NCBI GenBank assembly: GCA_026421185.1
Contig: JAPKCH010000018.1
Location: 1 to 33,180, forward strand
Origin: Dehalococcoidia bacterium
Lineage (GTDB): Bacteria > Chloroflexota > Dehalococcoidia > Lucifugimonadales > Lucifugimonadaceae
Direction of reading: 5' to 3'
Length of the DNA stretch: 33,180 nt
The notes under the pieces were generated by a model. The model made no database searches, was not told the origin of the DNA, and was given only the letters and a program-made list of their open reading frames with translations. Both the position numbers and the translations under genes were made by a program. This document shows, piece by piece, positions 548 to 22,055 of this stretch (position 1 is the stretch's first letter; each line of letters opens with the position of its first letter).

Positions 548-1915
548 ATGGCTGACTCGCGACCAAACGTGATCGTATATTTGACCGACGACCAGGGCTA
601 TGGCGATCTATCGTGCATGGGTGCGACAGATTTCAAAACGCCGACCCTCGACCGCATGGCGAACGATGGTGTGAGATTCACGAACTGGTATTCGAATAGC
701 CCTGTCTGTTCTCCTTCTCGTGCAGCTTTGCTATCTGGACGCTATCCCGGCAATGCGGGAGTACGTTCGATCCTTAGAGGCCACCGAACCGCGACAGGCC
801 TTCCTGCTAGCACCCCAACTCTTGCGACGATGCTCCAAAAAGAGGGCTACCAGACCGCTATTACTGGTAAGTGGCATCTGGGTCTTGCAGAAAAATCTCG
901 ACCTGGAGCCCATGGGTTCGAAAAGACATTCGGATTCATGGCGGGATGTATCGATTTCTATTCGCATATTTACTACTGGGGTGCCAACCGCCCTGGACCG
1001 AGCATGAATCCTACGCACGATCTATGGGAGAACAACGAAGAGATTTGGCGTAACGGTGAGTACTTCACGGAGCTAATCGCTAAGAAAGCGATCGAATACA
1101 TTCGTGAAATGAACAAGTCCGACAAACCGTTCTTTCTCTACATTCCATTCAATGCGCCGCACTATCCGATGCACGCTCCACAGGAGTACATGGATCGGTT
1201 TGCTGACTTGCCATGGGACCGGCAGGTGATGGCTGCAATGATTAGTGCTGTCGATGACGCCATCGCTAAAATTAAAGACGAAATTGAACGGCTTGGTTTG
1301 ACCGATAACACTCTCTCGGTATTTACATCCGACAACGGACCTTCGCGTGAGTCACGCAACTGGCTCGATGGTTCTCAAGACCCTTACTACGGTGGTACAT
1401 CCGGCGGTCTTAAGGGTCACAAATTCAGCCTGTTCGACGGTGGAGTCAAAGAACCTGCAATCATGCACTGGCCAGCACGAATTCCTGCGGGGCAGGTGAT
1501 GAATCAGTCGTGCGCGTCAATGGATATCGTGCCGACCGTACTTGAAGCCGTTGGAGTCGATTCTTCGCAATACGAAATCGATGGCTCTAGTTTGATCTCA
1601 CACGTAGTCGATGGCGATGATCTGATTGATCGAGCTATCTTCTGGGAGATGGATGGTCAGACAGCCGTTCGTAAAGGCAAGTGGAAGTTGGTATTAGACG
1701 GGCAGCTGGTGGAGGATGATGAGCCGATTGCAGCAGTTCATCTTTCTGATGTCGAAAGTGATCCAGGTGAAACGATAAACCTCGTTGATTCAGAACCGGA
1801 AATTACTGCCGAATTGAAAGCTCTCGCTGAAAATTGGCGCGCTGGGATTGAAAAGCGTTGGGAAGACGAATATTCAACTGAAGATTACGAATATGTCGCG
1901 CACGGCATGGTTTAA
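548..1915 (+). CDS. Sulfatase (arylsulfatase family, Cys-type, cytoplasmic)
   Basis: Predicted type I sulfatase that removes sulfate esters from a sugar or aryl substrate. The 455-residue protein begins with the metal-binding segment containing D14-D15 (YLTDDQGYGD) and carries the formylglycine signature CSPSR at 54-58, so Cys54 should be matured by a formylglycine-generating enzyme encoded elsewhere. Further family landmarks are GKWH (107-110), APHYP (204-208), SDNG (261-264) and the Lys-rich LKGHKFS segment near 288-294. The length is typical. There is no signal peptide, so the enzyme probably works inside the cell on imported substrate, unlike many polysaccharide sulfatases. The ATG is preceded by AAAAGGA at a suitable distance. 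The UxuA-like gene follows 56 bases later in the same direction, suggesting a shared transcript for a sulfated or acidic sugar. The substrate cannot be read from the sequence. Confidence 0.93.
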   Translation: MADSRPNVIVYLTDDQGYGDLSCMGATDFKTPTLDRMANDGVRFTNWYSNSPVCSPSRAALLSGRYPGNAGVRSILRGHRTATGLPASTPTLATMLQKEGYQTAITGKWHLGLAEKSRPGAHGFEKTFGFMAGCIDFYSHIYYWGANRPGPSMNPTHDLWENNEEIWRNGEYFTELIAKKAIEYIREMNKSDKPFFLYIPFNAPHYPMHAPQEYMDRFADLPWDRQVMAAMISAVDDAIAKIKDEIERLGLTDNTLSVFTSDNGPSRESRNWLDGSQDPYYGGTSGGLKGHKFSLFDGGVKEPAIMHWPARIPAGQVMNQSCASMDIVPTVLEAVGVDSSQYEIDGSSLISHVVDGDDLIDRAIFWEMDGQTAVRKGKWKLVLDGQLVEDDEPIAAVHLSDVESDPGETINLVDSEPEITAELKALAENWRAGIEKRWEDEYSTEDYEYVAHGMV

Positions 1916-1971
1916 AACTCCCTTATTTTAAATCTTGAACAATATCACCAACTTATCCAAAGGAAATAAAA

Positions 1972-3033
1972 ATGGTGTACGACAAAGCCGGGATTAGCGA
2001 TTCGATCAAAGGTCATGGGCACTGGCCTGAGACCGACGAAACCCCGACCCTGACGCTGTTCCTGAACGATCTCGAAGATAGGTCACTGAGGAGAGTCAAG
2101 CAGCTCGGCGTAACTGGAGTCAGCACCGCAAGTCTCGATACCGGTGGGCTCGAAACGTGGACTGATGCGGATTTAAAACGAAACATCGATCGTGTTGCCG
2201 AGGCTGACCTCGAACTCCGAAACATCATGTTCGATCCGTCTGAGCGGGTTAAATTCGGCGAACCCGGTCGCGACGAAGATATCGGAACCATAATCAAGGC
2301 GATTCAAGTAGCAGGTCGGCAAGGACTGCCTGTTATGGAGTACAACTTCTACGCCCACCGTATTGTCGAGGGCTACAAAGTCGTCCCCGGTCGAGGTGGC
2401 TCAGGGTTGATGGATTTCAACAATGACCGAATTAAAGATTTGCCACCACTGAATGGGCAGACAGCCCATTCCATAGAGGATATGTGGGACAACGTCACGT
2501 ACTTCCTAAAAGCTGTTGTACCTGCTGCTGAAGAAGCAAACGTTCGTCTGGCACTGCACCCCAACGATCCACCGGCGCCTATTAGTCGAGGTAGTGGGCA
2601 GATCATGGGATCTGTCGAAGGTTGGAAGCGACTCACCGATATCGTGCCAAGCCCTTATAACGGCATAACTTTCGATTCTGGAGTGACTCGAGAACTTGGT
2701 CACGATCCGGTCGAAACATGTCGGTACTTCGGAGAGCGTGACCAGATTAACCATGTGCACTTCCGCAACGTGGTCACCCGTACTCCTCAGCTCGATTACA
2801 CCGAGGTTTGGATCGATGAAGGACAAGTAGATATGTTCGCTGTAATGAGCGAACTCGTTCGTCAGAAGTATCCACGATTGATATATCCGGAGCACCCGCC
2901 CACGAACGACTCAGATACTGAGTTCCCATTCAACGGTATTTCAGCAACCACTTACACAGGATTTGCTTATACCGTCGGCTACGCTCGAGCGATGATGCAG
3001 GCTGCGCTCGCTACTCAAGCAACAGGAAAGTAG
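1972..3033 (+). CDS. UxuA-like (mannonate dehydratase family) TIM-barrel protein
   Basis: A 353-residue protein that resembles D-mannonate dehydratase, the enzyme converting mannonate to 2-keto-3-deoxygluconate in glucuronate catabolism. Family landmarks are ALHPNDPP (194-201), HVHFRNV (261-267) and YPEHP (305-309). At the strand where classical UxuA has a Cys metal ligand (T-F-C-T-G), this protein reads TFDSG (233-237), so the Cys is replaced by Asp. That suggests a divergent subgroup, possibly with another acid-sugar substrate, so I do not assign the gene symbol. An AAAGGAAATAAAA leader precedes the ATG. It sits between a sulfatase and an SMP-30 lactonase, which supports a role in uronate or aldonate breakdown. 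Sugar phosphate isomerase/epimerase-type activity is the main alternative. Confidence 0.75.
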   Translation: MVYDKAGISDSIKGHGHWPETDETPTLTLFLNDLEDRSLRRVKQLGVTGVSTASLDTGGLETWTDADLKRNIDRVAEADLELRNIMFDPSERVKFGEPGRDEDIGTIIKAIQVAGRQGLPVMEYNFYAHRIVEGYKVVPGRGGSGLMDFNNDRIKDLPPLNGQTAHSIEDMWDNVTYFLKAVVPAAEEANVRLALHPNDPPAPISRGSGQIMGSVEGWKRLTDIVPSPYNGITFDSGVTRELGHDPVETCRYFGERDQINHVHFRNVVTRTPQLDYTEVWIDEGQVDMFAVMSELVRQKYPRLIYPEHPPTNDSDTEFPFNGISATTYTGFAYTVGYARAMMQAALATQATGK

Positions 3034-3223
3034 GAATCGACAAAGGTTTCAGCGGGGCCAATAAATCTTCGAATTTCGCGAGACGTCGACATCATGGGAC
3101 GATACGACGAAGAAGAACGCTGGGCGGAAGTGCTCCTTCTCCTTCTCAGATAGACTATCGATTACTCGCGGAGTTCAGTTTTTTACTGGATTGAGCGGTA
3201 AGTTACAAATTTAGGAGAGATTA

Positions 3224-4123
3224 ATGCGATACCAGGTAGAAAAACTCGCAGCCGAGAACGCTGTAGTCGGTGAAGGCCCAGTGTGGGACATTGATTCTCA
3301 AACTCTGTATTGGATCGACATTCAGGGCGGTAAGTTTTGGAATTACGATCCCGCTACCGGTGATAACAAACTTCTCCACGAGGGCTATAACATCGCTGGA
3401 GTAACTCGTAACAAGCATGGCGGATTCGCCGTTGGTACGTGGGAAGGTGTTCAACTCTGGAATTCCGATGATGATTTCACTTGGTTACACCGTGGTGATG
3501 TGGATGGCCGGCCTATCAAATTGAATGACATCACAGTTGGTCCAGATGGCAGCCTGTATGGCGGTAGTGGTCACCTAGACTCTTGCACTCTGTTCAGATT
3601 CAAGCCCGACGGAACAGCCGAAATAATCGACGATGGACTCGACCTTTGCAATGGCATGGGCTTTTCTCCTGATCTCAAGACCTTCTATTCGACCGATTCT
3701 CCGAAGCACGAGATTTACAAGTGGGATCATAATCCAACCAGCGGGGCGATCACGAACAAACGAGTGTTCACTACGATCCCTGATGACTGGGGAATCCCAG
3801 ACGGTATGACCGTTGATAGTGAAGGTTATGTCTGGTCGGCGATTTGGTACGGAGGTGCAATTGTTCGATTCGACCCGGACGGCAAAGAAGAACGCCGAGT
3901 TGAACTTCCAGCAGCTCAGACTTCTTCGGCCATGTTCGGCGGAAGAGATCTGAATGAGTTGTATGTCACGACAGCTGCATTTGGTACTGGTGACCCGACT
4001 CTTACCGGTTGGGAACCAGTGGGATTTAAAATGGATACTTATCGAGGTGGCGATCTTTACCGAGTGAAGCTTGATATTCAAGGTAAAGCTGAGTTTCTCA
4101 CCGACTTCGTAGTGCCGAGCTAG
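3224..4123 (+). CDS. SMP-30/gluconolactonase family protein
   Basis: A six-bladed beta-propeller lactonase of the SMP-30/LRE group, expected to hydrolyse an aldono-lactone to the free acid. The 299 residues match the family length. The divalent-metal ligands line up with those of human SMP-30: E18 in GEGPVW, N143 in NGMGFSPD and D193 in PDGMTVD, with N101 in LNDITV as the substrate-side Asn. No signal peptide, hence cytoplasmic. The ATG follows TTTAGGAGAGATTA, a strong ribosome binding site. It lies 190 bases downstream of the UxuA-like gene; that gap contains no convincing gene. It is distantly related to the two tandem lactonases at 29842-31750, which resemble each other more than this one. 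Confidence 0.9.
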   Translation: MRYQVEKLAAENAVVGEGPVWDIDSQTLYWIDIQGGKFWNYDPATGDNKLLHEGYNIAGVTRNKHGGFAVGTWEGVQLWNSDDDFTWLHRGDVDGRPIKLNDITVGPDGSLYGGSGHLDSCTLFRFKPDGTAEIIDDGLDLCNGMGFSPDLKTFYSTDSPKHEIYKWDHNPTSGAITNKRVFTTIPDDWGIPDGMTVDSEGYVWSAIWYGGAIVRFDPDGKEERRVELPAAQTSSAMFGGRDLNELYVTTAAFGTGDPTLTGWEPVGFKMDTYRGGDLYRVKLDIQGKAEFLTDFVVPS

Positions 4124-4373: not shown

Positions 4374-5453
4374 GTGACAGAAAACACACAGGCAGTAGAA
4401 AAGCAGTCAGCGATAACCCTAGCGTCGATAGCCAGAATTTTTTTGGGTATCTTTGGTCACTTTATCGTGAAGCGTTTCCTGTTCTTTATATTTGTTGTCT
4501 GGTTGGCGAGTACGGTGATTTTTATCATCCCTCGACTCTCAGGCCAAGATCCAGTTAAAGAAAAATTGCTGCTAGAAGCCCAACGTGGTGGAGCAATGCA
4601 AACTGGTCTCGACGCGATGGCGAAGACCTACCAAAAGAAGTTTGGACTCGATCAACCGATGTCGACCCAGTACTTCAACTTCATGAAGGACTTGGCGAGG
4701 TTGGATTTAGGCGTTTCGATCGCATTCTACCCTCGCACAGTCAATGACATCGTATTCGAATCATTAGCGTGGACATTGGGACTGATGGGGACGGTGACGA
4801 TCCTCGCCTTCATATTAGGGACGCTCGCGGGCGCTGTATTGGGTTGGCCTAGACGACCGGGGTGGGTTCAGTACGTATTCATGCCGTTGCTAACGCTGGC
4901 AGCGATTCCACAATACCTGCTGGCAATGATCCTGATTTTCGTATTCGCTTTCCAATTGGGCTGGCTACCTCTATTTGGTGGCTACTCCGTAGCAACGGTG
5001 CCTGTATTCACATTCGAATTTATTGTTGATGTGTTGCAGCACGCTATTTTGCCTGCATTTGCAATTCTGTTCTCGGTAGTCGGATTCTGGGCGATTGGCA
5101 TGCGTGGCATGATGATCAACACTCAGGGTGAGGACTACATGATTCAGGCTGATGCCAAAGGATTGAAGGGTTCTCGTATTTTCATGCGTTACGCACTTCG
5201 TAACGCCCTGCTTCCACAGGTAACAGGACTAGCTCTTGTACTCGGGACCATCGTTACCGGGCAAGTACTTGTCGAGCGGGTGTTCTCATACCCGGGAATC
5301 GGCGACATCCTGTTCCAGGCAATCAGATTGTCCGACTTCTTTGTTATTCGAGGAATCGTAATCGTGATAATTTTTGGAATAGCGGGTGCAACATTCCTGC
5401 TCGATATCCTCTACCCACTGCTTGACCCACGTATCAAGGTAAGGAGTTCCTAG
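4374..5453 (+). CDS. ABC importer permease, Opp/Dpp B type
   Basis: Inner-membrane permease subunit of a peptide/nickel/oligosaccharide-type (Opp/Dpp) importer. The 359 residues show an N-terminal membrane segment near 35-53 followed by a long external loop (about 55-130), then segments near 134-158, 166-193, 222-243, 283-300 and 323-347. The ATPase-coupling EAA loop is visible as QADAKGLKGSRIFMRYALRN (258-277), and the C-terminus ends in LLDPRIKV as in this family. The start is GTG at 4374; no clear Shine-Dalgarno precedes it, and no better start fits the N-terminus. The second permease begins directly after its stop codon, so the two are translationally coupled. The substrate cannot be read from permeases; neighbouring sugar-acid genes favour a carbohydrate. 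Confidence 0.92.
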   Translation: MTENTQAVEKQSAITLASIARIFLGIFGHFIVKRFLFFIFVVWLASTVIFIIPRLSGQDPVKEKLLLEAQRGGAMQTGLDAMAKTYQKKFGLDQPMSTQYFNFMKDLARLDLGVSIAFYPRTVNDIVFESLAWTLGLMGTVTILAFILGTLAGAVLGWPRRPGWVQYVFMPLLTLAAIPQYLLAMILIFVFAFQLGWLPLFGGYSVATVPVFTFEFIVDVLQHAILPAFAILFSVVGFWAIGMRGMMINTQGEDYMIQADAKGLKGSRIFMRYALRNALLPQVTGLALVLGTIVTGQVLVERVFSYPGIGDILFQAIRLSDFFVIRGIVIVIIFGIAGATFLLDILYPLLDPRIKVRSS

Positions 5454-6425
5454 ATGGCAGAATTAGTAACTTCACCGGAGCCTATGGATACAGAAATTAA
5501 CGGTGGATTTAGACAGTTCAATACGGAACGTATCCAGCCTATTAAGAGATATGCATACAGAAACCCATCCCTTATCTGGGGATTTGGTCTGATGATATTC
5601 TTGCTACTGTTTGTTGGAATCGGTCACCTTGTTTGGGACACCGAACAGTTCCACCCTCTATCAACACCAACTCGTCTAGCACCAACTCTTAGTCACGACA
5701 TGGTTAAGGGTGGCGAACTCACAGGTGAAGTTCGGGCGTTCCCGTTCGGTACCGACACAGCGGGGCGTGATCTGCTTGCAGTCGCAATCCTAGGTACGCC
5801 TCTCACACTACGAATCGGCATAATCGCCGGTTTTGTATCAATTGCATTAGGTACTATCGCAGCGTTTATGGCTGCCTATTATCGAGGATGGGTTGACGGC
5901 GCTATTCGATCAGTTGTTGACGTAGGTCTGGCAATGCCAGGCTTGCTGATCCTGATATTGATACGAATCAACATTGGACGCGAACTCAGTACTGATGAAA
6001 TGGGATTTGCGCTTGGATTAGTCGGTTGGGTTTTCCCCGCACGAACAATCCGTGCACAAGTACTAGTCATGCGAGAGCAGGCTTATGTTGAGCTTTCACG
6101 ACTATCGGGAACCAGTGGAATGGGAATCATCTTCAAAGAGATGCTCCCTAACCTCATTCCTTACATTACTGCCAGCCTAGTAGGTTCGGTTGCTGGAGCA
6201 ATTCTTGCGTCGATCGGCCTTGAAGCCATCGGACTGGGAAACTTCAGTGCACCAACACTCGGCATGACCATTTTCTTCAACATCCAGTTCTCATCAATCA
6301 CGCTAGGTATGTGGTGGTGGTGGTTGCCGCCGCTGGTTGCTATCGTGATTGTGTTCCTCGGATTGTTCCTGATTTCATCAGGATTGGATGAATGGTCTAA
6401 CCCACGATTGAGGAAACGCGTTTGA
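5454..6425 (+). CDS. ABC importer permease, Opp/Dpp C type
   Basis: Second membrane subunit of the importer, 323 residues. A cytoplasmic N-terminal tail of about 38 residues leads to a first membrane segment (LIWGFGLMIFLLLFVGIGHL). A periplasmic stretch follows that contains FGTDTAGRDLLA, a hallmark of DppC/OppC proteins, and then five further hydrophobic segments. The coupling loop reads VELSRLSGTSGMGIIFKEML, and the protein ends with a basic tail (NPRLRKRV). The ATG abuts the stop codon of the upstream permease, and the last four bases overlap the TTG start of the first ATPase gene, so the operon is tightly coupled. Confidence 0.92.
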   Translation: MAELVTSPEPMDTEINGGFRQFNTERIQPIKRYAYRNPSLIWGFGLMIFLLLFVGIGHLVWDTEQFHPLSTPTRLAPTLSHDMVKGGELTGEVRAFPFGTDTAGRDLLAVAILGTPLTLRIGIIAGFVSIALGTIAAFMAAYYRGWVDGAIRSVVDVGLAMPGLLILILIRINIGRELSTDEMGFALGLVGWVFPARTIRAQVLVMREQAYVELSRLSGTSGMGIIFKEMLPNLIPYITASLVGSVAGAILASIGLEAIGLGNFSAPTLGMTIFFNIQFSSITLGMWWWWLPPLVAIVIVFLGLFLISSGLDEWSNPRLRKRV

Positions 6426-7456
6426 GCACCGAACAATCAATACAGACATATAGAGACGGTGCACGGATTACCGATGTCGACGCTCTCGTTGTAGACGGTC
6501 TTTCGGTTTACTACGAAACCGAAGGTGGGACGGTGAAAGCCTGTGATGGCGTAACGTTTACCCTCAAGCAGGGTGAACGGTTTGCTCTCGTTGGTGAATC
6601 CGGGTCGGGTAAGACAACTCTTGCCATGGCTCTGATGCGCCTCACGAGGCCCCCTGGACACATCGCTAAGGGCAGCGTCACACTTCACGGGCGAGACATT
6701 ACTAGTCTCGACGACAAAGAAATGCGACAAGCACGTCTTGCTGAGATCGCATTGGTCCCGCAGGGTGCGATGAACTCGCTCAACCCGATCATGAGGATTG
6801 GTAAGCAGATCATCGACGGAGTCATCGATCACCTTAAGGACGATGAGCCAACCCCTACTAAGGATGAGTTAGATGAAATGGTGCATGATCTACTAACACG
6901 AGTAGGTCTACGACCCGGTGTCGCACGCTTGTGGCCACATGAGCTATCAGGCGGTATGAAGCAACGCGTAGCGATGGCCATTGGCATATCGCTACGACCT
7001 AAGCTGATCATCGCCGACGAACCAACTTCAGCACTCGACGTTGTCGTTCAGCGACAGATCATGCAAACGCTTGGTCGACTGCAAGAAGGACTTGATGCTT
7101 CAATCATGCTTGTAGGTCACGACATGGGCCTTGTTGCTCAGTTCGCCGACACTATTGGTGTGATGTACGCAGGTAAACTTGTTGAAGTCGGCCCGGTAGA
7201 AGAAGTATTTAGTAATCCCAAGCACCCGTATACAAAACTGTTGATCGGGAGTCTCCCGTCACTGCAAGAAAAACGGGAATTCTTGGGGATTCCAGGGCTT
7301 CCTCCTCTGCTTGTGGATTTGCCACTCGGCTGTGCGTTCGCAGACCGTTGCCCATCACGCTTCGACAAGTGCGAAACTGCTATCCCTGAAAAACTTAACA
7401 TTGGGGGCCGTCGAGACGTGGCTTGCCATCTATATGAAGATGAGGTTCAGTCGTGA
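6422..7456 (+). CDS. ABC importer ATPase, Opp/Dpp D type
   Basis: ATP-hydrolysing subunit that powers the importer, 344 residues. Walker A is GESGSGKT (58-65). It is followed by a Q-loop in VPQGAMNSLNP, the ABC signature LSGGMKQR, Walker B IIADEPTSALD and the switch His in VGHD. After the nucleotide-binding domain comes the oligopeptide-type C-terminal extension with the Cys-containing GCAFADRCPSRFDKCE segment, which in this family can hold an iron-sulfur cluster. The start is TTG at 6422, overlapping the permease stop by four bases (TTGA). The downstream ATPase overlaps its stop in the same way. Confidence 0.94.
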   Translation: MSTEQSIQTYRDGARITDVDALVVDGLSVYYETEGGTVKACDGVTFTLKQGERFALVGESGSGKTTLAMALMRLTRPPGHIAKGSVTLHGRDITSLDDKEMRQARLAEIALVPQGAMNSLNPIMRIGKQIIDGVIDHLKDDEPTPTKDELDEMVHDLLTRVGLRPGVARLWPHELSGGMKQRVAMAIGISLRPKLIIADEPTSALDVVVQRQIMQTLGRLQEGLDASIMLVGHDMGLVAQFADTIGVMYAGKLVEVGPVEEVFSNPKHPYTKLLIGSLPSLQEKREFLGIPGLPPLLVDLPLGCAFADRCPSRFDKCETAIPEKLNIGGRRDVACHLYEDEVQS

Positions 7457-8514
7457 GCACCTTTCTTGAACTAGATCACGTAACTAAAAAATTCGGTAGC
7501 GAGGGAATGTTCGGAAATGGCATGGTTACCATCGCCGTTGACGACGTTTCTTTAACTATCGATGAAGATGAACCTTCGATCACCACAGTTGCTGGCGAGA
7601 GTGGAAGTGGAAAGACAACTCTTTCCCGGCTACTTCTCGGAAGCCATGTACCAACTGAAGGTCGTATGCTTTACCGAGGTAAGGATTTTACGCAACTCAC
7701 TCGCCGTGAGCGTCGTAACTTCCGACGTGAGATTCAGCCGATCTTCCAAGATCCGTTTGAATCCTACAACCCGTTCTACAAGGTTGATCACGTTCTCTCT
7801 GAACCGATCAAAAACTTCAAACTTGCCTCCTCTGGTCGCGAGAAGAACAGGATGATCGAAGATGCGCTCGAGATGGTTGGCCTAGTACCGGGCGAAACTT
7901 TGGGTCGCTTCCCTCACCAGTTGAGTGGTGGACAACGCCAGCGAATTATGGTTGCACGTGCGCTTCTTTTGAAGCCACGAGTGATCCTCGCCGACGAGCC
8001 AGTATCGATGGTAGATGCATCGCTTCGAGCGACAATTCTCGACTCGATTCGCCGCCTAAACCGAGACCTTGGTATTTCGGTTGTGTACGTTACTCACGAC
8101 TTGACGACCGCATACCAGATCAGCGACAACATTCTGATTATGTACCGTGGGACGATTGTTGAAGCAGGTACTGTAGATCAAGTTATTCCGAACCCACAGC
8201 ACCCATACACGCAACTGCTGATCGAATCGATTCCTCAGCCTGATCCTAAGAACCGTTGGGGTTCAGAGCCGCCTCAGCAAAACTGGGATACTTCTGACAC
8301 CGACATTGCTGGTTGCCGATTTGCGGATCGTTGTCCAGCAGTAATGGATCAGTGCCGTACCTCTGCACCGAAGCAGTACCTCATCAACGAAAAACAGTTG
8401 ACGCGATGCTTTTTGCACGAAGAAAAGGGCGAGATGCAGAACCCGGATATCACAAGTACGTTCCAGACTGAGTCTGAGACGATCAAAGCGATTCCGGCTG
8501 ACATGTCTGCGTAG
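7453..8514 (+). CDS. ABC importer ATPase, Opp/Dpp F type
   Basis: Second ATPase of the importer, 353 residues, pairing with the one encoded just upstream. Walker A is AGESGSGKT, the Q-loop lies in IFQDPFESYNP, the signature is LSGGQRQR, and Walker B reads ILADEPVSMVDASLRA. The PVSMVD wording in place of PTSALD is common in a branch of Opp-type ATPases that includes sugar importers, a weak hint at substrate. The switch His is in VTHD. The C-terminal extension again has the paired Cys pattern (GCRFADRCPAVMDQC). The start is GTG at 7453, overlapping the preceding stop by four bases. The gene ends in a short hairpin and converges with the thioredoxin-like lipoprotein gene seven bases away. Confidence 0.94.
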   Translation: MSTFLELDHVTKKFGSEGMFGNGMVTIAVDDVSLTIDEDEPSITTVAGESGSGKTTLSRLLLGSHVPTEGRMLYRGKDFTQLTRRERRNFRREIQPIFQDPFESYNPFYKVDHVLSEPIKNFKLASSGREKNRMIEDALEMVGLVPGETLGRFPHQLSGGQRQRIMVARALLLKPRVILADEPVSMVDASLRATILDSIRRLNRDLGISVVYVTHDLTTAYQISDNILIMYRGTIVEAGTVDQVIPNPQHPYTQLLIESIPQPDPKNRWGSEPPQQNWDTSDTDIAGCRFADRCPAVMDQCRTSAPKQYLINEKQLTRCFLHEEKGEMQNPDITSTFQTESETIKAIPADMSA

Positions 8515-8529
8515 GCAGACCTTAAGGTC
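8505..8529. other. Overlapping inverted repeats at a convergent gene junction
   Basis: GTCTGC (8505-8510) and GCAGAC (8515-8520) form a perfect six-pair stem with the ATPase stop codon in the four-base loop. The palindrome GACCTTAAGGTC (8518-8529) overlaps the second arm and contains the stop codon of the convergent gene. There is no T tract. The structures are mutually exclusive and could slow polymerase or protect both 3' ends; chance is possible. Confidence 0.4.
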
Positions 8530-9757
8530 CGAACTTATTGACTCCGAAGGTCACGGTGTAAACAGCCAGGCCTTCGGAGTTTGTTTTTAACACGAGTTCG
8601 TGTTTGCCAAAATCAGACAGTTCAAGGATTTGATAGAGCCGAGCGTCGCTGACGATTACAACGCTTTCGCCTTCAGCGTTCCATTGGACATCTGCTCCAA
8701 ATTGTTGATAGGAAACTGGTTTACCGTCGATTTCAACTATCACTTCAGTAAACCCTGAAGCCGAACTCATAACGCTGTTAACGGAAGTGGCAAAAAACTC
8801 AAATGCGAACTCTGGAGAGGAACCATTGACGTTACTACCACTTACGACAGCCGTTTCTTCGTTTACCCACTGGCCATTTAAGAAGAACTGGCCATGCCGT
8901 CGTGTGCCATCGTCAGTGTAATCAACGGTTGAGTGTGGAGCTTCGTAGTAGGAATCTTGACCGGCGTAGAGGCCATCAGGCAAGTAATTTTTTGAATACC
9001 CCCCGTACAACTCTCTTGTTATCGTGTGAGCGGTTTCTGAACGTTCAGGTAACGCTATGTTTATAGGCTGGACTGATTCAATGTCATACCCTGCCTTATC
9101 GAGCTCTGCCCGAATAGTTGATTCAAACTCACGATAGCCGCCCTCGCCGAAATGGCGTAAAACAACCTCACCGTCAGCGCTAATTAGGTACTTTGATGGC
9201 CAAAAGTGATTTCCGTATTTATCCCAAGTTTGTTTGTTGTCGTCGAGTGCAAGAGGATATTCGATGTCATATCGCTCGGCTGCAACTTTCACGTTTCCGG
9301 CTACTTTTTCAAAATCAAACTCGGGTGAATGAACGCCGATGATCACCAGCCCCATATCGACGTATGCCTCGTGCCAAGCATTGAGATAAGGAAACGTTCG
9401 AATGCAATTTACACAGGTATATGTCCAAAAATCCAGCAATACGACTTTTCTGGAATCCGCTAAATCTCTTAGATTGATCGGGTCCGAATTAATCCAACCA
9501 TTGAGCCCGACCAATGAAAGATCTTCCAATAGAAATCGTTCAGGCTGACCGACTATCTCGAATTCATTACTCGGCGGGGTAGCGGTAGCTGTCGGTGGGA
9601 GAATCCCTGCTTTGCTGACCGTTTTTTCAGAAACAACAGATATAGAAGTCGGTTTATTTGAGGTGTCGCCGCCACCGCACGCTGCGACAAACGCTAACGA
9701 TGTCACTGCAACGATCGATACGAATCCAAATAAATTCAGCGTAAATCGGTTTGTCAA
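8522..9757 (-). CDS. Lipoprotein with TlpA/DipZ-like thioredoxin domain
   Basis: Predicted membrane-anchored, extracytoplasmic thiol-disulfide protein of 411 residues. A signal peptide ends in the lipobox FVAAC with Cys27. A Ser/Thr/Pro-rich linker follows to about residue 65, then a redoxin fold with the active-site motif CVNC (115-118) inside LLDFWTYTCVNCIRTFPYL. The stretch DDNKQTWDKYGNHFWPSKYL is typical of DipZ-type redoxins. The C-terminal third (about 265-411) looks like the beta-rich domain found after the redoxin in DipZ proteins, here without the CcdA-like membrane domain. It is encoded opposite to its neighbours, between the importer and its probable binding protein, so it belongs to neither operon. 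It may reduce or repair disulfides in exported proteins such as the Cys-rich lipoproteins encoded nearby; that link is inference. Confidence 0.85.
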   Translation of the reverse strand: MTNRFTLNLFGFVSIVAVTSLAFVAACGGGDTSNKPTSISVVSEKTVSKAGILPPTATATPPSNEFEIVGQPERFLLEDLSLVGLNGWINSDPINLRDLADSRKVVLLDFWTYTCVNCIRTFPYLNAWHEAYVDMGLVIIGVHSPEFDFEKVAGNVKVAAERYDIEYPLALDDNKQTWDKYGNHFWPSKYLISADGEVVLRHFGEGGYREFESTIRAELDKAGYDIESVQPINIALPERSETAHTITRELYGGYSKNYLPDGLYAGQDSYYEAPHSTVDYTDDGTRRHGQFFLNGQWVNEETAVVSGSNVNGSSPEFAFEFFATSVNSVMSSASGFTEVIVEIDGKPVSYQQFGADVQWNAEGESVVIVSDARLYQILELSDFGKHELVLKTNSEGLAVYTVTFGVNKFGP

Positions 9758-10067: not shown

Positions 10068-11960
10068 ATGACATTTACTAAGAGGTGGAGAATTCTCTTC
10101 CTCGCCATGCTGTCAATTGCGCTTATTGCGGCAATTGCTTGTGGCGGAGATGAAGACTCTGCTAGCGATGGTGGAGGCTCAGAGCCTGCACCTGCTAAAG
10201 AAAAAGCAGCTGAAGCTGCTCCTGCTAAGGAAGCTGCTCCTGCTAAGGAAGCTGCTCCTGCTAAAGAAGCTGCTGCAGTTGGAATTGCAGACGTAGCTCG
10301 GGATGACACGTTCATCGGTTACCTTGGTGGTGCTGAAGGTCGTTTTGTTGACCATGAGCTATGGAACCCCTACGCCATTGGTGCAAACCACCAATCTGGT
10401 CCAAACATCATCTTTGAGCCGCTTGCATTCTTTAGTGCATTCGACGATAAGACGATCCCTTGGCTCGCTGAGAGCTGGGACTGGAACGGCGACTTTACTG
10501 AGTTGACTATCAACCTACGATCCGGTGTGAACTGGTCCGATGGTGAAGAGTTCAACGCAGACGACGTTGTTTACACGTTGAACACTCTTAAGGACCTCAA
10601 AGAAGAAGTCCGATGGGGTAACGACATCGACAACGCTATGAACCGAGCGGAAAAAGTCGACAGCCACACCGTAAGGGTAGTGCTTGACCGACCAGACCCA
10701 CGATTCATGTTCCTCCTGACGTACAAGTTCGACATTGGTGTTTACATGGTGCCAGAGCACCACTACAGCAGCCAAGACTGGACTACGTTCAAGGACTACG
10801 ACCCAGCCCAGGGCTTCCCGCTAACTACGGGTCCATGGAAGGTTGTTTCTGGAACACCAGAGCAGAAAATCATCGACCGCCGCGACTCGTGGTGGGGCGA
10901 AGGCGTATCTGACCTCGGTCAGTTCGGCAAGCTGCCTGGACCAGCACGTGTAATTTACCTGCCAACTCCTGACCAAACGGTTCGGTCGCAGGCTCTGATT
11001 TCGGACACCGTTGACTACTCTGCAATGACCACACCTGCGGTTATCGTTGAGACAATGGGCAAGAACTCAGACTTGGTTACACACACCGGTACAGACACTC
11101 CTTTCGGATATGTTGACTGGTGGCCGGTATCGATTGGTTTCAACGACTCCGGTAAGTTCGGTCCTTACGACAACAAAGATGTTCGATGGGCATTCAGCTA
11201 CTTGCTAGACCGGCAGGAACTGGCTGACGTGGCCTACGACGGCGCAGCGGCTTTCAACCCGCTTACGATGCCGCAGTACCCACCGCTCCAGAAGTACTTT
11301 GACTCCGTAGCGGACCTCCTTGCTGTACACGACACCACAGAGCACAACCCAGCCAAGGCTGCAGAGTTGCTCGAAGGTGCTGGATACACAAAGACTGGTG
11401 CTGACGACACTTGGGTTGACGCCCAAGGTAATGGCATCAACTGTGAAATCATCGGCTTCAGCCCGTGGGTGGACCTTGGTCCTGTCACAGCTGAGCAGCT
11501 TCGACGTGAGGGCATCAACGCTTCTTACTCCCAGCCGCCAGATGCTTCTTCACGAATGGCTGAAGGTAACTTCGAATGTCTGATGTTCGGACACGGCGGA
11601 TCGGTCCGTGACCCTTACTTCACAATGAAGCTTTACCAGTCAGCGTCAGTAAACATTCCAGGTGGTCACCAGGTCAACTTCTACCACTGGGAAAACGAAC
11701 GTTTCGACGAACTTACTGACGAAGTCGCTAAGACTCACCCAGATGACATCGACAAGATGCAAGTACTGTGGCATGAAGCCATGGATATCTGGTTGACAGA
11801 ACTTCCGGACGTTCCAGTTCTTGAGTTCTACCACCGCATAATCATGAGTGAAAAGCGATGGACTAACTGGCCTCTCGGCGGTGAAACCTCTGGTTACGTG
11901 AACGAGGCCTCTTGGCACCTCACGTGGTCACTGGTACTACACGGCCTTACAGCTAAGTAG
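10068..11960 (+). CDS. ABC importer solute-binding lipoprotein (family 5, Opp/Dpp A type)
   Basis: Extracytoplasmic binding protein of 630 residues that captures substrate for an Opp/Dpp-type importer. A basic N-terminus and hydrophobic stretch lead to the lipobox AAIAC with Cys25. Residues 26-72 form an acidic, then Ala/Pro/Lys/Glu-rich linker. The family 5 fold follows, recognisable from [39 protein letters not shown] and a long bilobed body. The size is at the upper end, as in the sugar-binding members of the family. The ATG is chosen for its CGGAGGT ribosome binding site. It has its own strong promoter and terminator, so it can be made in excess of the permease/ATPase operon 1.5 kb upstream, with which it probably works. 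Confidence 0.92.
10212..10265 (+). repeat. Three tandem 18-base repeats in the linker
   Basis: The unit GAAGCTGCTCCTGCTAAG occurs at 10212-10229 and 10230-10247, with a third copy differing only in its last base at 10248-10265. Each encodes EAAPAK, and the whole makes the flexible spacer between the lipid anchor and the binding domain. The near identity at DNA level suggests recent slippage, so copy number may vary between strains. Confidence 0.85.
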
Positions 11961-11986: not shown

Positions 11987-12005
11987 GAGATAACAGACGC
12001 AAACG

Positions 12006-12041
12006 AAGTGCCCCTGCCAATTTGGTAGGGGCACTTTTTTT
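12006..12041 (+). terminator. Intrinsic terminator of the binding-protein gene
   Basis: AGTGCCCCTGCC (12007-12018) pairs with GGTAGGGGCACT (12024-12035) with one G-T wobble and a short loop, followed by a run of seven T. This is a textbook Rho-independent terminator. Confidence 0.9.
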
Positions 12042-12114: not shown

Positions 12115-12612
12115 ATGAGTTTTCAGGGGAACGTTGTTTCGTTGAGCTTTGTAAAGTCTGTTTTATTGGTTCTGGCAGTAGTTGTTATGTTCGCTGTGCT
12201 AAGTTGTGGAGATTCTGGCGAGCCAATCGCATCAGAGAACGTTTCTGTAGACGAAAAGGGAGTCAGGTTGGTGACTCGGCCTGAGGCGTCCTACACAATC
12301 GATGATCTAACTGCCGTAGGATTCAAGAAGAATCGACAGTTCGGTTTGGAAACTGTGCCGGGGTCGATTGATATTTGGTACGGCTTCTTTAATCAACGTG
12401 ATATCGAAGTACGGTTCTACAGTTCACACGCCGACGCTATTTCTGTAGGTACTGAGCCGGCTGAGGTGATCATTGCACGCACAGCAGGGCAGAGAGACCC
12501 ATTGATACCGGTTGTGAACTTGTACCCGGCTTATGCTATCGTCGGGAACATGATAATGCTCTGTGAACGTCAAATATCGACATGTGAGGATCTCATCGCC
12601 GTGTTGCCATGA
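12115..12612 (+). CDS. Small lipoprotein of an unnamed five-member local family (member 1)
   Basis: I do not recognise a known family. From the ATG at 12115 the protein has 165 residues: a hydrophobic signal ending in the lipobox AVLSC (Cys31), then a domain of about 130 residues. It shares with the four minus-strand lipoproteins downstream the segments YTIDDL, WYGF, EVRFYSSHADAI and AIVGNMIMLC. It is the most divergent: the acidic EDA/DRR segment in the middle is missing, and the C-terminal Cys pair is C-X6-C, not C-X11-C. An earlier in-frame start at 12022 exists but would lie inside the terminator of the previous gene and give no signal peptide at the N-terminus, so I reject it. It is probably exported and anchored to the membrane; its role is unknown. 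Confidence 0.75.
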   Translation: MSFQGNVVSLSFVKSVLLVLAVVVMFAVLSCGDSGEPIASENVSVDEKGVRLVTRPEASYTIDDLTAVGFKKNRQFGLETVPGSIDIWYGFFNQRDIEVRFYSSHADAISVGTEPAEVIIARTAGQRDPLIPVVNLYPAYAIVGNMIMLCERQISTCEDLIAVLP

Positions 12613-12648
12613 GACGAATCTAACCCTTCGCTAACGGGTTAAATAAAT

Positions 12649-12680
12649 AGACCGACATGAAAAATGTCGGTCTGTTTTGG
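12649..12680. terminator. Bidirectional terminator between convergent lipoprotein genes
   Basis: AGACCGACAT (12649-12658) and ATGTCGGTCT (12664-12673) form a perfect ten-pair stem with the loop GAAAA. GTTTTGG follows on the + strand, and the complement of AAATAAAT follows on the minus strand, so it could stop both transcripts. A weaker stem TAACCC/GGGTTA lies just left of it. Confidence 0.82.
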
Positions 12681-12693
12681 TTTGTCTATCTGT

Positions 12694-13257
12694 CTAAGCA
12701 GGTTCTGCTATCAAGCCCAGCATGTTTTCACAGTTTGTGAATGCGTCTGGTGATTCGTCACCCTCACAGAAGAGAATCATGTTTCCACGAATAACGTATT
12801 CAAGGTATCTTGCTGAATAGGAACAGCTAGAGTGGGGAGTTTGTGCGGCTCGACTGCACTTGCGACGGTCTTTCCTGCCTTCTTCCCAAAGCACATCGCC
12901 AGTTACTACAGCATCTTCACCGGTTACTGAATCTGCGTACAGAGTTCCTTCTGCTACAGCTGCTGCATGTGTTGGGTAAAAACGAACTTCGTAATCGAGC
13001 TGATTGTAGATGGCATTCCATGCTTCTAGAGCACCTGGAAGTTCATCGATGTCGTAGTCCTTTACAACCTTGACACCCAATACTCCACGAAAATCTTCAA
13101 CCGTGTAGATCCGATCGCTCGCAACGACCCGAGGTACTTCTGATTCTCCCCCACTTGCACCTGAATCAGATCCGCAAGCAGTACCGATCAGCGCAACGAA
13201 AATTGCGAACATGAAAACGACAGTATATTTTTTGTTTAATGAACTGGAAGTGGACAT
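12694..13257 (-). CDS. Small lipoprotein of the local family (member 2)
   Basis: A 187-residue exported lipoprotein with signal peptide and lipobox IGTAC (Cys28), followed by an acidic Gly/Ser linker. The domain shows the family landmarks YTVEDF, DYDIDELPGALEAW, YEVRFYPTHAAAVAEGT, the acidic EDAVVTGD segment, RKDRRKC, YVIRGNMILFCEG and a final Cys (C-X11-C). Between DRR and the Tyr-rich strand it has an extra Cys pair, C-X10-C, shared only with member 3. It begins three bases after the stop of member 3, as the last gene of the minus-strand cluster. Function unknown. The conserved Cys residues suggest extracytoplasmic disulfides. Confidence 0.8.
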   Translation of the reverse strand: MSTSSSLNKKYTVVFMFAIFVALIGTACGSDSGASGGESEVPRVVASDRIYTVEDFRGVLGVKVVKDYDIDELPGALEAWNAIYNQLDYEVRFYPTHAAAVAEGTLYADSVTGEDAVVTGDVLWEEGRKDRRKCSRAAQTPHSSCSYSARYLEYVIRGNMILFCEGDESPDAFTNCENMLGLIAEPA

Positions 13258-13260
13258 GAT

Positions 13261-13839
13261 TTACTGCACCACAGCCATCAGATCAGCACATGCCTGGAGT
13301 GAAGTAGGGGTGTCCTTGCCTTGGCACATCAGCACCATGTTTCCAACGACTACGTAATCGAAGTACTTTGGGTTGTCGCATTTGCCTGAGTGATGTCCAC
13401 CGTTACCAGCACACTGACGGCGGTCCGAGATTCCCTCGTCCCATCGCTGTATGTCCTTGAGTAGAGTTGCGTCAGCACCTGTAGCTTCATCGGCGAAATC
13501 AACACCCTCGACCATTGCAGAAGCGTGACTAGCGTAGAAGCGAGCTTCGTATTCGAGTCGTGCGTAAGGATCGGAACCGTAGAAGCCGTAGATGGCTGTT
13601 ATAGCGCCATCGAGTCCTTCTACATCGTAATCATCGTCGTGCTTGAAAAATGGAACACCCGTAATGTCGGCGTCGGTGTAGATGCGTTCCGTAGCGTTGA
13701 TCTTCACTATCGGACCTTCATCAACAGCAGTCACACTATTGTCGCTATCACTTCCACAAGCTACTGCAGATATCGAAAGCGCTGTAATCGCAACAATCAG
13801 TATCAGAAGCCGTGCCTTGCCACTGTTTATCTGATTCAT
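13261..13839 (-). CDS. Small lipoprotein of the local family (member 3)
   Basis: A 192-residue lipoprotein with lipobox AVAC (Cys28). It shows the family pattern YTDADITGV, DYDVEGLDGAI, YGFYG, YEARFYASHASAM, GADATLLKD, SDRRQC, YVVVGNMVLMCQG and a C-X11-C ending. Like member 2 it carries the additional C-X10-C pair, with a Gly/His-rich loop between the Cys residues. The ATG at 13837-13839 follows AGGGAGCTTGAT, a good ribosome binding site. A 159-base gap separates it from member 4, so members 3 and 2 may have their own promoter; I see no clear one. Function unknown. Confidence 0.8.
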   Translation of the reverse strand: MNQINSGKARLLILIVAITALSISAVACGSDSDNSVTAVDEGPIVKINATERIYTDADITGVPFFKHDDDYDVEGLDGAITAIYGFYGSDPYARLEYEARFYASHASAMVEGVDFADEATGADATLLKDIQRWDEGISDRRQCAGNGGHHSGKCDNPKYFDYVVVGNMVLMCQGKDTPTSLQACADLMAVVQ

Positions 13840-13998
13840 ATCAAGCTCCCTGTAATTGTTCCGTACTTACTAATTGTCTGAAAACAAATTAAATTGTGTA
13901 GTGAGTTTGCCAAATATACCTGTTTACAACTCAACAGTCATTCGCCAAATTAGCCATCTATATGAATGACTCTGTCCAACGATATCATTATGGCGTAA

Positions 13999-14562
13999 TT
14001 ATGCGCCCTCACCTCTTATTAAAGCGACGAATGGTGCGCATTGATCGAGGGAATGCTCCGGAGTCCGTCCTTCACACAGAATCGCTATATTTCCGAGTAT
14101 CACGAAATCGCCGTATCGAGGGTTTTGACTTCCTCTCGCTCCGCCTCCAACAATTATTCTGCGATCACGAACGCCTTCACCCCACAACGCATCATCTGCG
14201 TTCAGCGATGCGTCTTCACCTGAAGAGTCTTCGGCGAACCGAGTTCCTTGTTCGACGGCTACCTGATGGCTTGGGTAGATCCTGATTTCGTAATTGAGAG
14301 AACCAAGTCCTGGTGGAGTCCAGAATCCCATGTAGGCCTGTTCCGCACCATCTAGTCCTCCAACATCGTAGGTTTTGCCTACCTTCCAACCCGTCGCTTT
14401 GATGTCATCGATGGTCAAAGTTCGCTCGAAATCGGAGATTTTCACTATATTTGCGGCTGAGGGAGCATCGGGTGATCCTGAGCCACATGCGGCGAATACG
14501 ATCATCACCAGAATGGGAAGCATTGCAAAACCGAGAAATCTAGACTGAGATTGCTTATTCAA
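13999..14562 (-). CDS. Small lipoprotein of the local family (member 4)
   Basis: A lipoprotein of 187 residues if started at the TTG at 14560-14562, which gives a basic N-terminus (MNKQSQSRF), a hydrophobic stretch and the lipobox FAAC with Cys26. That start overlaps the stop of member 5 by eight bases. A longer frame from a TTG at 14601 is also open but gives an atypical signal, so I prefer the shorter one. Landmarks are LTIDDI, YDVGGLDGA, YEIRIYPSHQVAVEQGT, GEDASLNADDALWGEGVRDR, FVILGNIAILCEG and the C-X11-C ending. It lacks the C-X10-C pair of members 2 and 3 and instead has a Gly-rich VGGGARG loop shared with member 5. Function unknown. Confidence 0.75.
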   Translation of the reverse strand: MNKQSQSRFLGFAMLPILVMIVFAACGSGSPDAPSAANIVKISDFERTLTIDDIKATGWKVGKTYDVGGLDGAEQAYMGFWTPPGLGSLNYEIRIYPSHQVAVEQGTRFAEDSSGEDASLNADDALWGEGVRDRRIIVGGGARGSQNPRYGDFVILGNIAILCEGRTPEHSLDQCAPFVALIRGEGA

Positions 14563-15133
14563 TTGGAACCAACGTATTTGCCATAAGAGCACATCGTTCA
14601 AGCGATGTTTCTGGATCAGCTCCCTGACAAAGTAGAATTATGTTCCCGAAAATAGCGTAAGTTCCGAATTTTGGGCCAATGCCACTGCGAGCACCGCCAC
14701 CGACGCCTCCGCCGATGATCGTCCTGCGATTCTTCACCCCTGATTTGTAGGTAGCGTCATCCTCACTCAGAACTGCGTCCGCTCCGGTTCCCTCGATCGC
14801 CATCGCTGTTCCTTGATCGATTGCCGCTTGATGGGAGTCGTAAAACCTAACTTCGTAATCGTAGGGATCACCCTCACCAACCCTCAGGAAGCCATAGCTG
14901 ACGTTATTGGCCCCTGACAAGCCCTCGGTTGAGTAATTACTCAACTCTTTGTACGGAGTGGCAAGAAGATCTTCGATAGTCATTATTTGGCCAGGATCGC
15001 TAATTTGTAGGAAGATAGCTTCTTCGCTTTCGCCAGATCCACAACCGGCCAATAATATTGCTGACATCGATATTGCTAAGACCAGAATAAAATTCAACCA
15101 ATATCTGCGTAGCTCAGAAACCCTGAGTATCAA
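14555..15133 (-). CDS. Small lipoprotein of the local family (member 5)
   Basis: A 192-residue lipoprotein with basic N-terminus, hydrophobic stretch and lipobox LLAGC (Cys31). The TTG start at 15131-15133 is supported by GGAGG nine bases upstream. Landmarks are MTIEDLLATPYK, YSTEGLSGA, YEVRFYDSHQAAIDQGTAMA, GADAVLSEDDA, KNRR, a long Gly-rich loop (IIGGGVGGGARSG), YAIFGNIILLCQG and the C-X11-C ending. It is the first of the four minus-strand genes and overlaps member 4. The reading frame stays open upstream of the start for about 350 bases, through sequence that looks like the remnant of another gene. Function unknown. Confidence 0.78.
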   Translation of the reverse strand: MILRVSELRRYWLNFILVLAISMSAILLAGCGSGESEEAIFLQISDPGQIMTIEDLLATPYKELSNYSTEGLSGANNVSYGFLRVGEGDPYDYEVRFYDSHQAAIDQGTAMAIEGTGADAVLSEDDATYKSGVKNRRTIIGGGVGGGARSGIGPKFGTYAIFGNIILLCQGADPETSLERCALMANTLVPIE

Positions 15134-20404: not shown

Positions 20405-20470
20405 TCAGGATGTATTTTGAGCAGGTTCGATCTCGATATGAATTTTCAGTTCATTATTTTTCGTGAAAAT

Positions 20471-20505
20471 ATCCCAAAACTTCGACATTTTCGAGCTTTT
20501 GGGAT
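20471..20505 (+). promoter_or_regulatory. Long hairpin directly before the ribosome binding site
   Basis: ATCCCAAAA (20471-20479) and TTTTGGGAT (20497-20505) are perfect inverted nine-base arms, with an inner TCGA/TCGA pair (20482-20485, 20491-20494). The AAGGAG ribosome binding site begins within four bases of the right arm. Either an operator or an mRNA structure controlling translation of the gene at 20520 is plausible. Confidence 0.5.
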
Positions 20506-20519
20506 CTAAGGAGACACCT

Positions 20520-20843
20520 ATGTATGTGATCAGACGTGTGTATGAAGTGAAGCCAGGAACTGCTCGAAAAGTAGCTACTTTGGTTCAGCAGCAGGGTGAT
20601 GCATATTCGGCCGCTGACCAGCGCTCTGAAGTTCGTGTCTACTTCAATGGTGGAACTGTGCCCGGTGACAACAATCGCGTGTACATGGAATGGACTGATG
20701 AAACGATAGATTCTCCGTACCGTGAAGGTCTGACGCTTGCTCCAGATGCAATGGCAATCGGTGCAAAAGTACGCGAGCACGTTATTAGTCAGTACATCGA
20801 GTTCTTTGAACTGATGACACCTGCAAAAATGCAGACAGACTAG
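20520..20843 (+). CDS. Small protein, possible ferredoxin-fold (ABM/NIPSNAP-like)
   Basis: A 107-residue cytoplasmic protein starting at the ATG at 20520, which has AAGGAG six bases upstream; an earlier in-frame ATG at 20463 would lie before the hairpin and has no ribosome site. The pattern of an N-terminal strand (YVIRRVYEVKPG), a helix (TARKVATLVQQQGDAY), a strand (EVRVYFNGG), a strand (NRVYMEWTDE) and a C-terminal helix resembles dimeric alpha/beta-barrel proteins such as antibiotic biosynthesis monooxygenase-like or NIPSNAP proteins. I see no cofactor or catalytic motif. It leads a set with a sugar-acid dehydratase and an FGGY kinase, so it may assist sugar-acid metabolism. Family placement is tentative. 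Confidence 0.6.
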   Translation: MYVIRRVYEVKPGTARKVATLVQQQGDAYSAADQRSEVRVYFNGGTVPGDNNRVYMEWTDETIDSPYREGLTLAPDAMAIGAKVREHVISQYIEFFELMTPAKMQTD

Positions 20844-20894
20844 AAGTTCCCGTTCAACTAACAAAAAAAACAGTTTGAAAGATGCTCGATAGAT

Positions 20895-22055
20895 TTGAAG
20901 ATCAAAGAAATAACCGCCTTCCCAATTCGCATTGTTCGCGATGAAGAAGGTGAAGGCAAAGAACGCCCCGCTGTAATCGATTTCGGCGATTACTTTGTAG
21001 ACGAAACCGCGTTCACTTCGATCTATTCGAAGCATCACGAAACTACAGTCATCAAGATCGAAACCGATACCGGAATTGTCGGTTGGGGCGAGGCACAGTC
21101 GCCAGTATCGCCGCGCACTACTCAGACGATCGTGGAAGATTTGGTTAGACCACTGATCTTGGGTCGCGACCCGTTTGATATCGAAGCTATCTGGACCCGT
21201 AATTACGGCGCAATGCGTGAACGGGGTCATCCAACTGGCTTCTACGTCGATGCGATTGGTGGCACTGATATTGCTCTGTGGGACATCGTCGGCAAGGCGA
21301 CTGACAAGCCCGTTCATAAGCTTGCTGGTGGTCGTTACCGCGACAAGATTAAGCTTTACGCCGGGCTGGGTGGAACTGATCCAGAAAAAGTTGCTGATTT
21401 AGCTGAAGAACATGTCGGATACGGGTACCAAGCTCTAAAGCTTCACCTACTGCTAGATGCAGAGGGCGTTGCCGAGATTGCTAGCGCTGTACGGAAGCGA
21501 GTTGGACCGAACGTGATGCTGATGTGTGACGTCCACATGCGTCATTCGTTGAGTAGCGCTATTAGACTGGGACGTGCACTCGAAAAGCTAGATTTCACTT
21601 GGTTGGAATCGCCACTGGTACCGGATGACATTCCGGGCGCAGTAGCTCTATCGGAAGCACTTGATATGGCAGTGGCAATCGGTGAGTGGAGTCGTACTAG
21701 ATACGAAATGCGTGAAGCTTTCGAACGGCGTGCTTACGACATCGTTATGCACGATATCGCTCGCACGGGTATCACCGAGGGGCACAGAATCGGCACTATT
21801 GCCGATACTTACAATATTCCGGTTGCACCTCACGTTGGCGGCGGAGGAATTTTGTCGGTTGCATCAACAGTAGAATACTCAGCCTCTTGTTCCAACTTCA
21901 TGATCATGGAACACGGACATCACGCCAACGATTACAAGAATGCGATTACTGCCGAGAACTACGGGCCGAAAGATGGCTTCTTCGAGGTTAGTGACAAGCC
22001 GGGGCTTGGTATAGAAATTGACCAATCATTGGTCGAGAAATTCTTAGTTTCCTAA
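20895..22055 (+). CDS. Mandelate racemase/muconate lactonizing enzyme family sugar-acid dehydratase
   Basis: Enolase-superfamily enzyme of 386 residues. The N-terminal capping domain (about 1-140) includes TDTGIVGWGEAQ. In the barrel, K182-L-H184 lies at the second strand, the metal ligands are D212 (CDVHMRH), E238 (WLESPL) and E264 (IGEWSRT), and H313 (APHVGGGG) is the likely base with its Asp partner. The D-x-H arrangement at 212-214 is seen in galactonate- and mannonate-type dehydratases and points to dehydration of an aldonic acid to a 2-keto-3-deoxy acid. The start is TTG at 20895 with only a weak ribosome site. It is 51 bases after the small protein and 28 before the kinase. The exact substrate cannot be fixed by reading. 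Confidence 0.88.
   Translation: MKIKEITAFPIRIVRDEEGEGKERPAVIDFGDYFVDETAFTSIYSKHHETTVIKIETDTGIVGWGEAQSPVSPRTTQTIVEDLVRPLILGRDPFDIEAIWTRNYGAMRERGHPTGFYVDAIGGTDIALWDIVGKATDKPVHKLAGGRYRDKIKLYAGLGGTDPEKVADLAEEHVGYGYQALKLHLLLDAEGVAEIASAVRKRVGPNVMLMCDVHMRHSLSSAIRLGRALEKLDFTWLESPLVPDDIPGAVALSEALDMAVAIGEWSRTRYEMREAFERRAYDIVMHDIARTGITEGHRIGTIADTYNIPVAPHVGGGGILSVASTVEYSASCSNFMIMEHGHHANDYKNAITAENYGPKDGFFEVSDKPGLGIEIDQSLVEKFLVS

Follow-up and report, generated by a model that had tools for sequence, protein, structure and literature searches.

Several capture proteins can serve one Opp-type importer: in Borrelia, five binding proteins act on a single Opp system (PMC5736914). Small extracytoplasmic α/β domains with conserved cysteines are found in the sensor domain of PknH and in the lipoproteins LpqQ, LprH, LppH, and LpqA (PF14032; PMC4118811). 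SAR202 group I bacteria, represented in culture by Ca. Lucifugimonas marina JH1073, carry large families of paralogous enzymes (COG4948 and others) for sugar and sugar-acid catabolism; lipoproteins go unmentioned in the main text of that paper (PMC10444878). The locus described here belongs to the same lineage and likewise keeps many divergent paralogs, although these are lipoproteins rather than catabolic enzymes. As in Borrelia, several putative capture proteins would serve one Opp-type importer; however, the Borrelia paralogs are family-5 binding proteins (PMC5736914), while here an unrelated small domain accompanies one normal binding protein.

The DNA that we analyzed, referred to as the window, is 33,180 nucleotides long and is contig 81 of a 2.1-Mb assembly from a SAR202 group I bacterium in the same genus as the cultivated Ca. 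Lucifugimonas marina, whose JH1073 genome (CP046147.1, our G013) was included in the comparisons. As claimed in the original prediction, positions 12115 to 15133 hold an array of five paralogous lipoprotein genes with one copy on the opposite strand: one gene lies on the plus strand and four on the minus strand, in open reading frames (ORFs) of 165 to 200 amino acids. These are D1 (12115..12612, +; a short divergent type of 165 amino acids), D2 (12694..13257, −; 187 amino acids), D3 (13261..13839, −; 192 amino acids), D4 (13999..14601, −), and D5 (14555..15133, −; 192 amino acids). The start of D4 is uncertain between 14577 and 14601, being at about 14577 in relatives versus 14601 in the window ORF. 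By eye, each of the five window copies has an N-terminal hydrophobic signal that runs up to a lipobox Cys, and all share one domain. Aligned along its length, D1 is 28 to 31% identical to the other array copies, and common to D1 through D5 are a K, the patterns T..D, E.R.Y..H, and GN....C, and a second C-terminal Cys. These three patterns had been pointed out before and hold; DRR, named with them, does not, since D1 has GQRDP in its place and D5 (14555-15133) has NRR. In the alignment of the five, a second Cys pair beyond C138/C150 is confined to the D2- and D3-type copies.

The neighbors reported earlier, an adjacent ABC solute-binding lipoprotein and, beyond it, a redoxin lipoprotein, are indeed present. 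The former is a family-5 ABC substrate-binding lipoprotein (10068..11960, +; PF00496, E = 7.5e-58) in which an Ala/Lys/Pro-rich repeat follows the lipobox. Its gene has a dS of ~0.4 versus at least 1.0 for most neighbors, as expected of a highly expressed gene. OppB-, OppC-, OppD-, and OppF-like permeases and ATPases are encoded on the plus strand at 4374-5453, 5454-6425, 6422-7456, and 7453-8514 (block 4374..8514; two BPD_transp_1 matches and two ABC_tran plus oligo_HPY matches). The OppBCDF-redoxin block (4374-9757) is inverted relative to those relatives where the block was seen, in which OppB and the binding protein are divergently oriented; the segment was either truly inverted in the genome or misjoined during assembly, and no clear inverted repeats were found at the ends of the block. 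Upstream of the importer, positions 548 to 4123 hold sulfatase, UxuA-like mannonate dehydratase, and gluconolactonase genes. An intrinsic-terminator-like stem (12005..12037, +; 15 pairs with a T run) occupies the gap between the binding-protein gene and D1, and a second terminator-like stem (12645..12677; 14 pairs on the plus strand and 10 on the minus strand) lies between the convergent D1 and D2. An ORF at 20454-21317 that appeared to be fast evolving is probably spurious, the opposite strand carrying an overlapping conserved gene.

The array domain had been described as belonging to no recognized family. Profile searches overturn this statement: all five proteins match Pfam DUF6810 (PF20650), a named family with no function assigned, at 68 to 172 bits (E = 7.8e-19, 3.8e-33, 3.1e-42, 1e-50, and 1.5e-49 for D1 to D5). 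All exceed the curated cutoff of 25 bits, and the shared domain is therefore far beyond chance; we noted no difference setting the five apart from the family. The SBP_bac_5 profile (PF00496) matched the neighbor at 10068-11960 and none of D1 to D5, and NCBIfam and PDB sequence searches with D1 to D5 found nothing. A sequence link between DUF6810 and another Pfam, NCBIfam, or PDB family was accordingly dropped, none having been found in these searches. Our literature search found no publication that names DUF6810. Among 100 DUF6810 sequences, the first position of the mature domain is Cys in 95; K35, E67, R69, Y71, H74, G81, N133, C138, and C150 are kept in 96 to 100%; and the Cys pair C138/C150 is present in 99%.

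DUF6810 is narrowly distributed. It occurs in 4 of 294 genomes of a class sample and in 2 of 400 genomes of a phylum sample, all of them in the GTDB family of the window, and in 36 of the 61 genomes within that family. Outside the phylum it was sought only by a scan of a named genome collection, and the loci kept from that collection were all Chloroflexota. Viral and plasmid searches gave zero matches, and a viral or plasmid origin was set aside. The window genome carries ~20 DUF6810 genes, two of them interrupted by a stop codon or a frame break, and copy number varies among genomes. Some 15 further copies are scattered in the genome beside mixed neighbors (catabolic enzymes, VKOR, MFS, UvrA, and others) with no fixed partner. 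The apparently decaying copies are at L058:1431-1985 and L059:1753-2309 (contigs C70 and C19 of G000). A deep subgroup of ~210 to 260 amino acids is marked by a long insertion ahead of the GN motif (L065:80-1595, L066:6800-7444, L072:11966-12727, and L075:6333-7031).

The array is an old paralog expansion rather than a recent one, judging from gene order and phylogeny, and on this point the original prediction stands. All 15 genus genomes inspected, the window included, share the order D5-D4-D3-D2, convergent D1, family-5 binding protein; the binding protein itself is seen in 14, and the contig of the remaining genome (G016) stops inside the array. D1 orthologs in congeners also lie opposite to the rest of the array, and two congeners carry one extra DUF6810 copy between D5 and D4. 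In the tree, each window copy forms a clade with the orthologs found at its own position (supports of 99/95, 100/98, 100/96, 100/99, and 100/100 for D1 to D5), and G020, a genome of another genus, contributes copies to the lineages of D1, D2, and D3. The positional-ortholog clades, together with these G020 copies, indicate that the array predates the genus.

Local expansion of exported proteins had been said often to reflect variable surface binding, sensing, or defense. Surface binding remains a fair guess, and variability and defense fare poorly. A reading as diversifying surface proteins, such as phage receptors, decoys, or defense factors expanded for variability, has some points in its favor: the proteins are exported, ortholog identity is 57 to 82% for the array genes versus 77 to 96% for the compared neighbors, two copies in the genome are decaying, and copy number differs among genomes. 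Yet the array genes, which do evolve faster than their surroundings, nonetheless keep their orthology, with strict synteny and a near one-to-one correspondence of copies. Moreover, comparisons with three congeners put pN far under pS for each of the five genes, indicating that D1 to D5 are functional genes under purifying selection, and PADLOC defense models gave no match to the array proteins at E values up to 1. With no defense, viral, or plasmid link, a diversifying role is very improbable.

Structure prediction, one of the routes to a function named in the original prediction, gave a confident fold and no significant match. The D4 domain model is compact (mean pLDDT 92, pTM 0.86), the D1 model has a pLDDT of 86, and both have a predicted core of a helix, three strands, a helix, two strands, and a helix. 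Foldseek searches of the two models against the PDB and viral models returned nothing with an E value below 0.001. Partial matches of both models to kinase N lobes were set aside as a common sheet-plus-helix arrangement. In structural alignment, the list for D4 is headed by the extracellular sensor domain of PknH (4ESQ; 116 residues aligned, Z = 5.8, rmsd 4.7), and TiME, an envelope protein of mycobacteria, scores a Z of 4.6; Z values below 8 are background, and both matches fall within it.

The PknH match raises the prospect that, in the manner of LpqQ/LppH-type lipoproteins and the extracellular domain of PknH, the array proteins are sensors or adaptors that bind a small molecule and report it to a partner in the membrane. 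DUF6810 and PknH_C are both small extracytoplasmic α/β domains with conserved Cys, and by eye the strand-helix and strand-N-strand-helix pattern of DUF6810 is collinear with the 4ESQ sequence. DUF6810 has one invariant Cys pair, joined by a second pair in D2- and D3-type copies, versus two disulfides in PknH_C, and PknH is outside the top 50 structural matches of the D1 model. None of 100 DUF6810 members matches PknH_C (PF14032) in Pfam, and hhalign of DUF6810 against 12 PknH_C sequences, taken from mycobacterial plasmids, gave a probability of 0.2% (E = 0.28), so this profile-profile comparison does not support homology. No signaling domain adjoins the array, and we regard a sensor role as improbable.

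A survey of relatives' neighborhoods, the other route named at the outset, revealed a conserved pairing with one Opp-type importer that is invisible from a single genome. In six other genera, all 11 genomes inspected have 3 to 9 arrayed DUF6810 genes immediately next to the binding-protein ortholog and permeases. Eight of these genomes were picked because the two features were already known to lie close together on a single contig, and G020 was picked for its DUF6810 copies; G703 and G684 (genus g5) were picked before adjacency had been seen, and both show it. Across seven genera, all 25 inspected genomes whose contig reaches that far have the array beside the family-5 binding protein and Opp-type importer, and linkage to this one importer is thus constant among the inspected genomes that extend to the importer flank, a set partly selected for the pair. 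In the family as a whole (61 genomes), a binding-protein ortholog at 64% identity or more occurs in 24 genomes, of which 23 have DUF6810; of the 25 genomes that have no DUF6810, 24 have no such ortholog either (Fisher p = 1e-6, a value inflated by genome kinship). The pairing is specific, since no DUF6810 gene adjoins the other family-5 binding proteins of these genomes and the scattered DUF6810 copies have mixed neighbors. Linkage to family-5 binding proteins is therefore not a trait of the whole DUF6810 family and concerns one binding-protein ortholog group only.

Because the array is kept beside the same importer in every genome checked, its proteins probably aid nutrient capture, and we tentatively favor the view that they are accessory capture lipoproteins of the neighboring family-5 (Opp-type) ABC importer. 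Several observations count against an importer-accessory role: the terminator-like stem that parts D1 from the binding-protein gene; the 13 DUF6810 genomes, though many are incomplete, that lack a close binding-protein ortholog; the scattered copies without a fixed partner; and the other family-5 binding proteins that have no adjacent DUF6810. The principal rival is an envelope function with passive linkage, in which structural or envelope-maintenance lipoproteins dock on membrane complexes or the wall and the importer pairing is an inherited neighborhood rather than shared work. The placement of DUF6810 copies beside unrelated genes fits such a function, as does the weak structural likeness to TiME and the sensor domain of PknH, both envelope proteins of mycobacteria. 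An inherited neighborhood, however, predicts equal decay of both flanks: G020 has lost the epimerase/PntB flank and kept the one with the binding protein and permease, and in other genera too it is the importer side that persists.

DUF6810 is also built into a membrane protein, a second tie to ABC transporters that speaks for the importer-accessory view. Four of 19 genus genomes encode an FtsX-type ABC permease of 1,478 to 1,519 amino acids whose unusual architecture combines ankyrin repeats with one or two DUF6810 domains (L056:10061-14494 on contig C70 of G000, with orthologs in G001, G008, and G011). Alignment with the adjacent paralogous permease shows that the Ank-DUF6810 segment is an insertion at residues 733 to 1205, between two FtsX modules, a region that is extracytoplasmic in this permease class. 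The inserted DUF6810 domain joins the D3 lineage in the tree (97/94). FtsX-type permeases often serve envelope processes, and the fusion thus lends the envelope explanation a further argument; weighed with the persistence of the importer flank, we consider that explanation rather unlikely. Separately, lipoproteins of ~400 amino acids (L068:6283-7476 and orthologs) carry an N-terminal Cys-containing domain without a Pfam family, fused to a DUF6810 domain that likewise joins the D3 lineage (97/94).

If the array does serve the importer, D1 to D5 would be membrane-anchored extracytoplasmic proteins that attend it. Their small α/β domain, with its conserved K, E, R, Y, and H and one Cys pair, may bind a ligand or dock on the binding protein or permease. 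By analogy with the five binding proteins of one Borrelia Opp, each paralog could widen the capture range of a single importer. Least certain is whether the DUF6810 domain would bind substrate itself or merely assist the binding protein. Among solved structures, the partner binding protein, as opposed to D1 to D5, is closest to the family-5 oligosaccharide-binding proteins 4pft, 4pfu, and 1zty; its best PDB matches include proteins that bind mannosides and chitin oligosaccharides, and these rank above binders of dipeptides and nickel. In three other genera (g386, g4, and g5), the cluster has a linked gluconolactonase gene. These oligosaccharide-binding relatives and the recurring gluconolactonase make sugars a better guess than peptides; on such comparisons, the importer more likely takes up an oligosaccharide or sugar acid than a peptide.

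It is possible, if somewhat doubtful, that these genes form a previously undescribed, lineage-specific extracytoplasmic module of ABC transporters, namely, a panel of non-SBP DUF6810 receptors, several per importer, that has also been grafted onto an FtsX-type permease. For the family, DUF6810 gains a concrete functional hypothesis, as one stable array out of ~20 copies per genome is tied to one defined importer, and the hypothesis is testable because the cultured Ca. Lucifugimonas marina carries the same array. SAR202 bacteria are abundant deep-ocean consumers of dissolved organic matter, and an accessory capture role for the array would bear on how they take up dilute deep-ocean substrates.
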